The position numbers and the translations under genes are program-made. Shown here one piece after another: positions 5,909 to 32,791 of a stretch of DNA of 64,000 bases. The stretch lies in the NCBI RefSeq assembly GCF_040126305.1, contig NZ_CP149510.1:3669001-3733000 (forward strand), given 5' to 3'. This DNA is from Pararhizobium sp. A13. Its GTDB lineage: Bacteria > Pseudomonadota > Alphaproteobacteria > Rhizobiales > Rhizobiaceae. Under the pieces are notes generated by a model. It saw nothing but the letters and a program-made list of their open reading frames with translations, was not told where the DNA came from and did no database searches. Each line of letters begins with the position of its first letter. Position 1 is the first letter of the stretch.

Positions 5909-5965
5909 TGGCCTGTTTCCGTCCATGTTTCGCGATTTTGGCTGTGAGTATCGTGTTTGGAGGCA

Positions 5966-5989
5966 TAAAAAAAGGCCCTGTGAGGGCCT
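5966..5989 (-). terminator. Attenuator terminator upstream of ilvI
   Basis: Perfect seven-base arms AGGCCCT/AGGGCCT around a three-base loop, followed on the minus strand by seven T. It lies after the leader peptide and before ilvI, so it can only act as a conditional terminator for the ilvIH transcript. Confidence 0.88.
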
Positions 5990-6022
5990 CGTGTTTGCGC
6001 ATGGGTGGCTATCGCCGGATGG

Positions 6023-6079
6023 TTAAACCATCCTGCCCATGCGCCGTCCCACCACAAGAATTGCAACGATCTTTTTCAT
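6023..6079 (-). CDS. ilvL: ilv leader peptide (18 residues)
   Basis: A short reading frame MKKIVAILVVGRRMGRMV followed by TAA. Seven of 18 residues are Ile, Val or Leu (I4, V5, I7, L8, V9, V10, V18), the products of the pathway it precedes. The stop codon lies inside an inverted repeat GGATGGTT/AACCATCC, and a longer pair GCGCATGGG/CCCATGCGC encloses it. An intrinsic terminator follows 34 nt after the stop. This is the layout of ribosome-mediated attenuation: scarce branched-chain aminoacyl-tRNA would stall the ribosome and alter the fold. Branched-chain leader peptides ahead of ilv genes are known in alphaproteobacteria. The RNA switch itself I infer; I did not resolve the competing anti-terminator. 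Confidence 0.87.
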   Translation of the reverse strand: MKKIVAILVVGRRMGRMV

Positions 6080-17668: not shown

Positions 17669-17848
17669 GGTGTCTCCTCACATGGCTGGGCTTACGCCGA
17701 GAGCCGTTCTTCATGAAAGGCGCGCAAGCCAAGTTTTTTCACGCCTGACGGGCTAGTCAAGGTCAATCAGCCCGCGGTTGGCAGCAAGCATACACTGTAT
17801 TTTCCGGAAGCCCCTTTTCTTGGAACCATTTAAGACCTATATGTCACT

Positions 17849-18222
17849 TGCCGTCTTCGGGCGGCTATGGCGATAAACAGGCGGTGAAATAAACCTATTG
17901 GACCCGGGGGCGGTACCCGGCGCCTCCACCAAAAACCGGTCAGCAATGACTTACAGACCGGCTTTTGATGGGGGCGAAATAGGATCGACAAGGGTGTAAA
18001 GATCGACTTTTCGCTCGGCATTGTACCACCGTTATCGGGCTAAAATTGTAGTTGCAAACGACAACTATGCGGAAGCTCGTCTCGCTGCTTAATCGCGGTG
18101 TGACACTTCAAATCAAGTCCTAAGGGGTCGCACTCTTAGGCGGGGTCCGAAGGCACCTGGCAACAGAAGCCTTCACCTTCTCCCCTGCCTTGAAATGGTC
18201 TATAGATGATGCAACTGACTCG
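17849..18222 (+). ncRNA. ssrA: Permuted two-piece tmRNA (alpha type)
   Basis: The order of parts is reversed, as in alphaproteobacteria. The acceptor piece comes first and ends CGCCTCCACCA (17921-17931) after a T-arm-like CCGGG/CCCGG hairpin. A 38-nt spacer with a CCGGTC/GACCGG hairpin follows, then the coding piece begins at 17970 with GGGGGCG, which pairs with CGCCTCC (one G-U). The tag frame runs 18054-18092 and encodes ANDNYAEARLAA before TAA. A -10-like CTATAT at 17837-17842 predicts a start near 17849. Both ends are approximate. It rescues stalled ribosomes and tags the peptide for proteolysis. Confidence 0.94.
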
Positions 18223-29998: not shown

Positions 29999-30101
29999 TC
30001 GCGGCACAAAAGCGGTTGCTGGCGCAAAGAAGCTGGACTTCCCGGAATAAAAGAGGAACGGAATTCTGGCCTTTCGGCTCCGAATCACTACATTGAGCCG
30101 C

Positions 30102-32738
30102 ATGAGCAATGGATTTGACGATATTCCCTTCTTCGACGAGGAGCCGGCGCCGCGTCCTACGCGCGGGCACCAGCCGGCGCCGCCCGCCCCCACCGGTGGC
30201 ATCGCCGCCCGCGCCATGGCAGCGCGTGACCAGCATCGGGCACCCGATTATCTTTCCGGCCTGAACCCGGAACAGCGCGAAGCGGTCGAAACGCTGGATG
30301 GCCCGGTCCTGGTGCTTGCCGGCGCCGGCACCGGCAAGACCCGCGTGCTCACGACCCGCATCGCCCATATCCTGTCGACCGGTCGCGCCTATCCCAGCCA
30401 GATCCTCGCCGTCACCTTCACCAACAAGGCAGCGCGCGAAATGAAGGAGCGCATCGGCGTTCTGGTCGGCGCCGCCGTCGAGGGCATGCCCTGGATGGGC
30501 ACCTTCCACTCGATCGGCGTCAAGCTGATGCGCCGCCACGCCGAACTCGTCGGCCTCAAGTCCTCGTTCACCATCCTCGACACCGACGACGTGGTGCGCC
30601 TGATCAAGCAGATCATTCAGGCCGAGGGCATCGACGACAAGCGCTGGCCGGCCAAGCAGTTCGCCCAGATGATCGACGGCTGGAAGAACAAGGGCTTCGG
30701 CCCCGCCGACATCCCCGAAGGCGACGCCCGCTCCTTTGCCAACGGCAGAGGCCGCGAGCTCTACGCCGCCTACCAGGCCCGGCTGATGACGCTGAACGCC
30801 TGCGATTTCGGCGATCTTTTGCTCCACCCGATCCGCATGTTCCGCGCCCATCCGGATGTGCTGAAGGAATATCACGACAAGTTCCGCTATATCCTCGTCG
30901 ACGAGTACCAGGACACCAACACCGCCCAATACATGTGGCTGAGGCTGCTCGCCCAGCGTCCGGTTAGAAAGAACCCCTCCCCAACCCCTCCCCACAAGGG
31001 GGAGGGGTTTGCCGGGTCGTACTCGCCGCGATCATCATTGGATGCAGAATTGGACGAGAGGTCGCGGCAATCTAGCCCCTCGCCCTTGTGGGAAGGGGTT
31101 GGGGAGGGGTCTTCGTCGTCACGATCAGCTAGCGACAATGGCCGTATCAACATTTGCTGCGTCGGCGACGACGACCAGTCGATCTATGGCTGGCGCGGCG
31201 CCGAGGTCGACAACATCCTGCGCTTCGAGAAGGATTTTCCCGGCGCCAAGGTGATCAAGCTCGAGCGCAACTACCGCTCCACCGAGCATATTCTCGGCGC
31301 CGCCGCCCATCTGATCGCCCATAACGAAGGCCGCCTCGGCAAGACGCTGTTCACCGATCGGGCGAACCCCGACGATGACAAGGTACAAGTCCACGCCGCC
31401 TGGGATTCGGAAGAGGAAGCCCGCGCCGTCGGCGAGGAGATCGAACAGCTGCAGCGCCAGAAGCACAATCTGAACGACATGGCGATCCTGGTGCGCGCCT
31501 CCTTCCAGATGCGCGAGTTCGAAGACCGCTTCGTCACGCTTGGCCTGAATTACCGCGTCATCGGCGGCCCGCGCTTCTACGAGCGGCTGGAAATCCGCGA
31601 TGCGCTCGCCTATTTCCGCCTCGTCTGCCAGCCCGCCGACGACCTCGCCTTCGAGCGCATCGTCAACACCCCGAAGCGCGGCCTTGGCGATACGACGGTG
31701 CGCAGCCTTCACGACTATGCCCGCGGCCGCAACATCCCGATGCTCGCCGCCGCCGCCGATCTCATCGAAACCGACGAGATGAAGGCCAAGCCGCGCAAAT
31801 CGCTGTTCGACGTCGTCACCATGTTCCAGCGCTGGCAGGGCCTCTTGGAGACCACGCCGCACACCGAGCTTGCCGAGACCATCCTCGAAGAGTCCGGCTA
31901 TACGGACATGTGGAAAAACGACAAGTCGGCCGAAGCGCCCGGGCGCCTCGAAAACCTCAAGGAGCTCATCCGCTCGATGGAAGCGTTCGAGAGCATGCGC
32001 GGCTTCCTCGAGCACATCGCGCTGGTCATGGATGTCGAGCAGAATGCAGAGCTCGACGCCGTCTCGATCATGACGCTGCATTCAGCAAAAGGCCTGGAAT
32101 TCGAAACCGTCTTCCTGCCCGGCTGGGAGGAAGGCCTGTTTCCGCACCAGCGCGCGCTCGACGAAGGCGGCCGCTCGGGCCTCGAGGAAGAACGCCGCCT
32201 TGCCTATGTGGGTCTCACGCGGGCAAAACGCCGCTGCCACATCTGGTTCGTCTCCAACCGCCGCATCCACGGCCTGTGGCAATCGACGCTGCCCTCCCGC
32301 TTCCTCGACGAACTGCCGGTCACCCATGTCGAAGTGTCGGAGGCCGAACAATCCTATGGCGGCTACAACCGCGGCGGCTACGGCCAGTCCCGCTTCGACA
32401 AGCAGGAACCGTTTGCCAATTCCTACTCCACCCCCGGCTGGAAACGCGCCCAGGCCAACAAGACCGACGCCACCCGCGACAACTGGGGCACCCGCTCCGG
32501 CGTGTCGATCGAGCGCATCGGCTACGGCGAATCCGGGCCCCGCGCCCGCACGATCGACGGCGAACTCATCGCCAAGTCAAAAGTCGACGAACCCTCGAAA
32601 TTCAACGTCGGCGACCGGGTGTTTCACATCAAGTTCGGCAACGGAAACATTGCCGGGATCGAGGGCAACAAGCTGACGATCGATTTCGATCGGGCGGGGC
32701 AGAAGCGGGTGCTGGACGGGTTTGTCGAGCGGGTGTGA
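30102..32738 (+). CDS. uvrD: ATP-dependent DNA helicase UvrD (UvrD/PcrA/Rep family), with inserted segment
   Basis: A superfamily 1A 3'-5' helicase of nucleotide excision and mismatch repair, 878 residues from the ATG at 30102 (a TTG at 30093 is also in frame). Motif I is AGAGTGKTRVL near residues 71-81, motif Ia VTFTNKAAREMK, II DEYQD (267-271), III VGDDDQSIYGWRG (near 353), IV ERNYRST, V TLHSAKGLEFETVFL and VI YVGLTRAKRR. Residues about 290-337, between II and III, are a Ser/Pro/Arg-rich stretch encoded by a palindromic DNA repeat. All motifs remain intact, so the gene looks functional. The C-terminus is Gly/Tyr-rich and then forms a UvrD C-terminal domain. Confidence 0.95.
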   Translation: MSNGFDDIPFFDEEPAPRPTRGHQPAPPAPTGGIAARAMAARDQHRAPDYLSGLNPEQREAVETLDGPVLVLAGAGTGKTRVLTTRIAHILSTGRAYPSQILAVTFTNKAAREMKERIGVLVGAAVEGMPWMGTFHSIGVKLMRRHAELVGLKSSFTILDTDDVVRLIKQIIQAEGIDDKRWPAKQFAQMIDGWKNKGFGPADIPEGDARSFANGRGRELYAAYQARLMTLNACDFGDLLLHPIRMFRAHPDVLKEYHDKFRYILVDEYQDTNTAQYMWLRLLAQRPVRKNPSPTPPHKGEGFAGSYSPRSSLDAELDERSRQSSPSPLWEGVGEGSSSSRSASDNGRINICCVGDDDQSIYGWRGAEVDNILRFEKDFPGAKVIKLERNYRSTEHILGAAAHLIAHNEGRLGKTLFTDRANPDDDKVQVHAAWDSEEEARAVGEEIEQLQRQKHNLNDMAILVRASFQMREFEDRFVTLGLNYRVIGGPRFYERLEIRDALAYFRLVCQPADDLAFERIVNTPKRGLGDTTVRSLHDYARGRNIPMLAAAADLIETDEMKAKPRKSLFDVVTMFQRWQGLLETTPHTELAETILEESGYTDMWKNDKSAEAPGRLENLKELIRSMEAFESMRGFLEHIALVMDVEQNAELDAVSIMTLHSAKGLEFETVFLPGWEEGLFPHQRALDEGGRSGLEEERRLAYVGLTRAKRRCHIWFVSNRRIHGLWQSTLPSRFLDELPVTHVEVSEAEQSYGGYNRGGYGQSRFDKQEPFANSYSTPGWKRAQANKTDATRDNWGTRSGVSIERIGYGESGPRARTIDGELIAKSKVDEPSKFNVGDRVFHIKFGNGNIAGIEGNKLTIDFDRAGQKRVLDGFVERV
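30971..31111. repeat. Palindromic repeat inside uvrD
   Basis: Outer arms of about 39 bp, 30971-31010 and 31073-31111, are inverted copies with about four mismatches. Each arm contains a smaller hairpin of the type CCCCTCCCC-ACAA-GGGGGAGGGG. Inner GCCGCGA/TCGCGGC also pair. The element is open in the uvrD frame, with no stop. Its composition and architecture resemble the element at 60854-60971. Confidence 0.88.
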
Positions 32739-32752
32739 GGGCACCTTGTGAG

Positions 32753-32791
32753 TGGATCCTCGGGTCAAGCCTGGCTTGACCCGAGGATCCA
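32753..32791. repeat. Perfect 39-bp palindrome after uvrD
   Basis: Nineteen-base arms (32753-32771 and 32773-32791; left arm starts TGGATCCTCGGGTC) with one central base. There is no U-tract, so it looks more like a dispersed palindromic repeat than a simple terminator, though it could end uvrD transcription. It lies 14 bp after the uvrD stop. Confidence 0.8.

Follow-up and report, generated by a model that had tools for sequence, protein, structure and literature searches.

An in-frame palindromic repeat in the UvrD helicase of a Pararhizobium lies in a loop that repeatedly carries repeat inserts in Hyphomicrobiales

How a conserved DNA repair helicase comes to carry a palindromic repeat in its reading frame is the question raised by the uvrD gene of Pararhizobium sp. 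A13. The gene occupies positions 30102..32738 (plus strand) of the window, the 64,000-nucleotide stretch of contig NZ_CP149510.1 analyzed here. It encodes an 878-aa 3'-5' helicase of the uvrD/pcrA type, as indicated by the ORF and its translation, Pfam matches PF00580 and PF13361, and PcrA/UvrD structures in the PDB. The frame is open from the ATG at 30102 to the stop at 32738, with a further TTG upstream at 30093. A preliminary description of this locus proposed that a repeat is read through in frame between helicase motifs II and III and leaves the motifs unharmed. Both points stand, as no stop occurs within 30102-32738, and the two flanking motifs, II (DEYQDTN, 30900..30920, plus strand) and III (GDDDQSIYGWRG, 31164..31199, plus strand), can be read whole in the sequence. 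At the domain level, the repeat is flanked by UvrD-helicase (E value, 1.7e-83) and UvrD_C (E value, 3.6e-64). A separate perfect palindrome with 13-bp arms is located just 3' of the uvrD stop (32757-32787); its pattern has no second exact copy in the genome, and it was dropped as a candidate dispersed repeat and is perhaps a terminator instead.

Comparison with the empty site of relatives delimits an insert of 62 codons (30963..31148, plus strand), which replaces a 5-codon KGxPQ loop. The real gain is therefore 57 residues and not the roughly 48 initially estimated. The palindrome of about 141 bp was likewise described with 39-bp arms; the inverted repeat is confirmed, with measured arms of 35 nt each that are 94% complementary and separated by 68 nt. 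The left arm (30973..31007, plus strand) is itself hairpin-like (CCCCTCCCC..GGGGGAGGGG) and is read as PSPTPPHKGEG, while the right arm (31076..31110, plus strand) is its reverse complement with two mismatches and is read as SPSPLWEGVGEG. A 34-nt arm pattern allowing up to 3 mismatches matches twice in the window, and 100 shuffles gave no match. For the 141-nt stretch, the folding energy is -102.9 kcal/mol, compared to -59.6 +/- 4.8 kcal/mol in 200 dinucleotide shuffles (z = -9.05). Three of its six reading frames lack a stop codon, and the phase used yields near-identical end peptides in either orientation of the palindrome (PSPTPxHKGEG ... PSPLWxGVGEG). Because the segment is stop-free in that phase, it would be translated as a loop. 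The idea that these 62 codons are an intron or intein, spliced out before the protein acts, is exceedingly improbable and was rejected, since Pfam reports no intein domain and the three Rfam matches of the window all lie away from the segment. Rfam places an alphaproteobacterial tmRNA on the plus strand at 17811-18177 and the Rhizobiales sRNA Atu_C8 at 5957-6077 (minus strand).

By alignment, the insertion site corresponds to the position between residues 242 and 245 of PcrA and to about residues 237-243 of Escherichia coli UvrD. In the RecA fold, the turn before the motif III strand faces away from ATP and single-stranded DNA. Judged from this fold, the insert would be exposed at the protein surface.

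The repeat is dispersed in the genome. A search of the own genome returned 28 matches, which group by position into 12 places, uvrD included; at five places besides uvrD, two oppositely oriented arms surround a variable spacer. At the 11 other places, 20 spanning open frames, a subset of the possible frames, were scanned with Pfam. Five of the 20 gave a match (two of them being the same DUF559 frame), each time with the repeat N-terminal of the domain and perhaps upstream of the true start. Thus, in these 20 frames no copy lies inside a Pfam domain. Within the scanned frames, only in uvrD is this repeat family flanked on both sides by domains of a conserved gene.

Within the genus, the uvrD site is empty (KGxPQ, 39-aa motif spacing) in 23 of 26 genomes, the own genome being counted among the 26. 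The three filled sites are those of the own genome, of G005, which carries the same repeat kind with the arms kept and a different spacer between them, and of G025, which carries a different insert. Together with the arms at 11 further genomic places, the 23 empty sites uphold the proposal that a dispersed repeat entered uvrD in frame. Since 23 of the 26 genomes are empty, the insert appears to have been gained recently relative to the age of the genus, or else to have been lost many times. Among 120 listed database proteins (of 7,999 scored), nine are not of the empty type, again with several insert kinds. The preliminary description would have been undermined if relatives had a linker of equal length and different origin. 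This is partly the case, and informatively so: at this position, many wider kin have inserts of comparable length that are unrelated to this one, but a good part of them consist of other palindromic repeats rather than an ancestral linker.

These features resemble the Rickettsia palindromic elements (RPEs), which are palindromic repeats of about 150 bp in several families, many of them in frame within genes according to the portions of PMC10969869 and PMC3733652 consulted (further sources, likewise in part, are PMC5896051 and PMC2635572). The uvrD insert is a strongly folding palindromic element of comparable size (141 nt), recurs at 12 places, although the recurring part consists of the arms only and the spacer differs, and is in frame while missing from most orthologues of the genus. 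The RPE comparison drawn in the preliminary description is thus right in kind, but it missed the main point, namely, that the loop itself is a hotspot and that a second target exists in cobN. As far as these same sources describe them, RPEs strike many unrelated genes in one genus, whereas in uvrD one position receives many insert kinds across genera of the Hyphomicrobiales.

The spacing between motifs II and III was used to follow the loop across this order, with 35-39 aa considered empty and at least 55 aa considered long, in four overlapping and non-independent samples. Among named public genomes (the best 80 of at least 587 matches), 33 of the 78 loops read have a spacing of at least 55 aa. 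When the order was sampled evenly (140 genomes, of which 136 matched, yielding 135 regions), 131 loops could be read; 7 of them reach 55 aa, and 119 have 41 aa or fewer. Long loops are frequent in the own family, sampled with one genome per genus (51 genomes, 50 with a match), where 22 of 50 have a spacing of at least 55 aa and 12 of 50 have 42 to 54 aa. They are also frequent in a Bradyrhizobium-type family (51 genomes from 47 genera, 48 with a match), with at least 55 aa in 30 of the 45 loops read. Both family names are presumed from the resemblance of the loops to named Rhizobiaceae and Xanthobacteraceae/Bradyrhizobium records.

The loop pattern detects in-frame loops only, and nine loci that it missed were inspected separately and stand outside the counts given: 2 of 80 named loci (L105 and L126), 4 of 135 order-wide regions (L204, L244, L260, and L263), and 3 of 48 in the second family (L310, L311, and L325). 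The first six proved to be short in-frame loops. In L311 (G249, about 2284-2970), 229 residues are inserted in frame, apparently as stacked repeats; L310 has N letters and a frame change at the loop, and the L325 sequence ends there. No stop or frameshift was found in any loop that was seen whole and free of N letters. On a uvrD tree (223 rows by 192 columns), the labels taken together change 62 times, and switches of empty to filled or back number 16; as only 30 of its 216 inner branches are starred and long branches meet, these counts were not leaned on. Taken at the level of sequence, the motif II-III loop of UvrD behaves as a recurrent hotspot for repeats of multiple families.

What fills the loop was examined on inserts of at least 20 residues, comprising 91 distinct sequences, 83 of which were folded. 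A z score below -3 was obtained for 43 of the 83 (mean, -3.90), compared to 0 of 83 equal-length downstream controls and 1 of 65 upstream controls. The other 40 show no strong inverted-repeat signal, and some loops are merely rich in Ala, Ser, and Pro, such as L331 (z = 0.0). Given these 40 inserts and the low copy number of one tested kind (see below), not every long loop is established as a repeat. Loops such as L331 would suit slippage, in which a low-complexity linker expands and its likeness to a repeat arises by chance. For the copy in the window, this explanation is contradicted by the arm pattern, which the shuffles never reproduced, and by the matches elsewhere in the same genomes; overall, we give it hardly any weight.

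Single-linkage clustering at an E value of 1e-4 was set aside, as GC-rich and chimeric matches drew 69 of the 91 inserts together; a same-strand cut at 50 bits or more gave 11 clusters of two or more and 26 singletons. By our reading of the peptide motifs, at least eight insert kinds can be told apart (PTPPHKGEG, SPLEGEM, SLPGLTRQS, VIPGR, VIPEAAQ, AAPQDE, SPRxRGE, and DGAPxRSEP), and the kinds follow lineage. Copy number was searched for four kinds (SLPGLTRQS, AAPQDE, SPQVGEM, and DGAPxRSEP) in the same 12 genomes (5 of the own family and 7 of the second family); matches on both strands were counted, and all numbers are lower bounds. For the SLPGLTRQS insert, its own genome gave at least 42 matches, the six others of the second family 2 to 53 each, and the five of the own family none. 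For the AAPQDE insert, there are at least 80 in its own genome, 29-64 in four others of the second family, and 0 in two; in the own family, two genomes have 19 and 1 and three have none. The SPQVGEM insert reaches at least 148 matches in its own genome; the other four genomes from the own family have 132, 88, 8, and 2, and all seven from the second family have none. The genome of the window is the one with 88 matches, yet its own uvrD is filled by another repeat kind. The DGAPxRSEP kind is low-copy, with 4 matches in its genome (query included), 3, 1, 1, and 1 in others of the own family, and 0 in the seven of the second. High-copy dispersed repeats are thus three of the four tested kinds, and for these three the insert mirrors the repeats of its lineage. 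Despite its low copy number, a DGAPxRSEPxSGDSVSE insert is common to UvrD of different genera (L308, L295, L301, L281, and L031), with 94% identity over 107 nt between G171 and G195. A single ancestral insert that later diverged was rejected as the whole story, as the inserts of three lineages match different repeats of their own genomes.

Targeting could also be suspected, as different repeat kinds occupy one position in two families; a mobilizing enzyme, RAYT-like or other, would then recognize uvrD and cobN DNA. Such an enzyme would have to use one shared target for repeats with different ends. Moreover, the own genome has five Y1_Tnp matches (L139-L143), whose proteins read as IS200-like, and neither of the two repeat units occurs within about 1.5 kb of these loci, where local scores of the arms are at best 7-9 of a possible 34. 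A RAYT as mover of the uvrD repeat is unsupported in the absence of repeats flanking the Y1 transposase loci, and we regard targeting in general as unlikely.

Carriers other than UvrD were sought among proteins of about 485-1540 aa, with matching that needs shared 5-residue words in the same phase. With the own-type insert (E value up to 1), 39 matches were obtained, 34 CobN and 5 UvrD by the Pfam column, with nine of the sequences also inspected directly; the known carriers P0045 and P0052 (Rhizobium giardinii) are missing from them. With the AAPQDE insert, all 30 matches have UvrD domains, including the query's own protein. Both searches are incomplete, and further genes may carry such inserts. 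In the cobaltochelatase CobN, two loops carry repeat inserts like those of UvrD. The own cobN (L401, G000:C1:3527140-3530784, minus strand) has SPLEGEM-type palindromic repeats in frame in both loops, with a uvrD-type repeat pair (G000:C1:3531225-3531444) situated upstream of the CobN Pfam match at a distance of about 440 bp. Long CobN proteins from 22 of the 26 genus genomes were aligned with five database sequences. On a quick DNA tree of the 22 genomes, built without the loops and with loop states assigned by motif pattern, each loop changes 7 times. In loop 2, the repeat family differs within the sister pairs L395/L403, L389/L397, and L385/L392 (support of 100, 89, and 100, respectively), i.e., cassettes of different families have been switched between close relatives.

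The cobN alleles bear on a further explanation, in which most loop copies stem from between-species exchange of filled alleles and not from new insertion. L403 and L395, whose cassettes belong to different families, are 96-99% identical in nine windows, whereas the codons adjoining the cassette (25 and 24) are 93% and 86% identical, and the bases directly 3' of the cassette go with the cassette family in the six alleles compared. Short-tract exchange in cobN is therefore possible on these patterns. On the other hand, alleles with the same cassette are no more alike near it (81% and 82% for L403/L397), and the other two sister pairs, L389/L397 and L385/L392, are mosaic along the gene. Exchange also leaves unexplained the first arrivals and the match of inserts to the host's own repeats. 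As the source of most copies, we consider recombination doubtful, though it deserves more credence than targeting.

A neutral filter for surface loops would predict less selectivity than is seen, in that the searches, though incomplete, gave UvrD and CobN as sole carriers. This could favor an adaptive insert, kept by selection, with repeats in UvrD tuning repair or the mutation rate or with an mRNA hairpin controlling uvrD translation. The very strong hairpin of the 141-nt stretch points in the same direction, and Di Nocera et al. (2013; PMC3733652), in the sections consulted, doubt that the targeting of repair genes is fortuitous and speculate on mutators. Against selection, the sequence, length, and kind of insert differ among relatives, most genus genomes are empty, the same pattern occurs in CobN, a subunit of a cobalamin enzyme, and no peptide common to all insert kinds was seen. 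An adaptive role seems improbable on balance.

The same 2013 report, in those sections, already describes repetitive extragenic palindromes (REPs) of the GTAG/CGTC superfamilies inside replication and repair genes, with a UvrD/REP helicase among them. It reports different REPs at about the same site in recB of Xanthomonas campestris and X. oryzae and REPs at different sites in other repair genes. Its UvrD case may concern the same site as the loop studied here or another one. The L199 insert, of the SLPGLTRQS type, is alike in kind: it reads CGTC ATTGCCGGG CTTGA CCCGGCAAT CCG, with the CGTC tag, a 9-bp stem, and a 5-nt loop, in line with the 8-9-bp stems and 4-5-nt loops of CGTC REPs, and its short tail, CCG, is near their CCA. 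The window's own repeat carries neither the GTAG nor the CGTC tag at its unit ends, as its units are preceded by AAAGAA and GAAGA. Rhizobial repeats are also on record (PMC5082802, PMC2573895, PMC2245857, and PMC2873474, as excerpted), including the Rhizobium-specific intergenic mosaic elements (RIME; Osteras et al., 1995), known here through citing papers. RIME are likewise rhizobial repeats and are described as intergenic. Among the titles and opening lines of abstracts in the open-licence PMC literature surveyed, no multi-family hotspot in uvrD or cobN is named. The in-frame repeat insertion is of a known kind and probably tolerated; what is new is that its site is a hotspot whose inserts match the repeats of the lineage, together with the switching of cassettes in cobN.

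We consider it likely that the segment is a translated and tolerated copy of a dispersed rhizobial palindromic repeat in a permissive hotspot loop of UvrD, and that the same holds for the two CobN loops. The copy would consist of two REP-like units in inverted orientation, one on each side of a variable spacer. It would have entered uvrD in frame where the helix that follows motif II turns toward the strand that leads into motif III, in RecA-like subdomain 1A. Being stop-free in the phase used and not removed, it would form a Ser/Pro/Gly-rich surface loop that is probably disordered, in a protein that is presumably stable. Repeats abundant in a lineage would land at this permissive site, or arrive through recombinational exchange, and filled alleles would survive, perhaps nearly neutrally, as the two halves of the helicase would remain able to fold; the two CobN loops may be subject to the same process. 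In a more novel variant, the UvrD II-III loop and the two CobN loops would be dedicated landing or exchange sites, entered by many families far more often than other tolerant loops through a process tied to the genes, with cassette switching altering helicase behavior and coupling repeat content to repair. This variant appears rather unlikely.

For our preferred reading, a tolerated repeat in a permissive loop, the meaning lies in the repetition. Palindromes in coding sequence are usually treated as scattered accidents, and here one position of a repair helicase is filled repeatedly by different families. Empty and filled alleles in close relatives, together with the switched cobN alleles, amount to a natural experiment on protein segments made from repeat DNA. 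They also caution annotators to expect UvrD and CobN loops of differing length on account of repeat inserts. Why such inserts persist in some proteins can be examined in this loop as in a natural test, and the 2013 suggestion that repair genes are non-random targets becomes directly testable.
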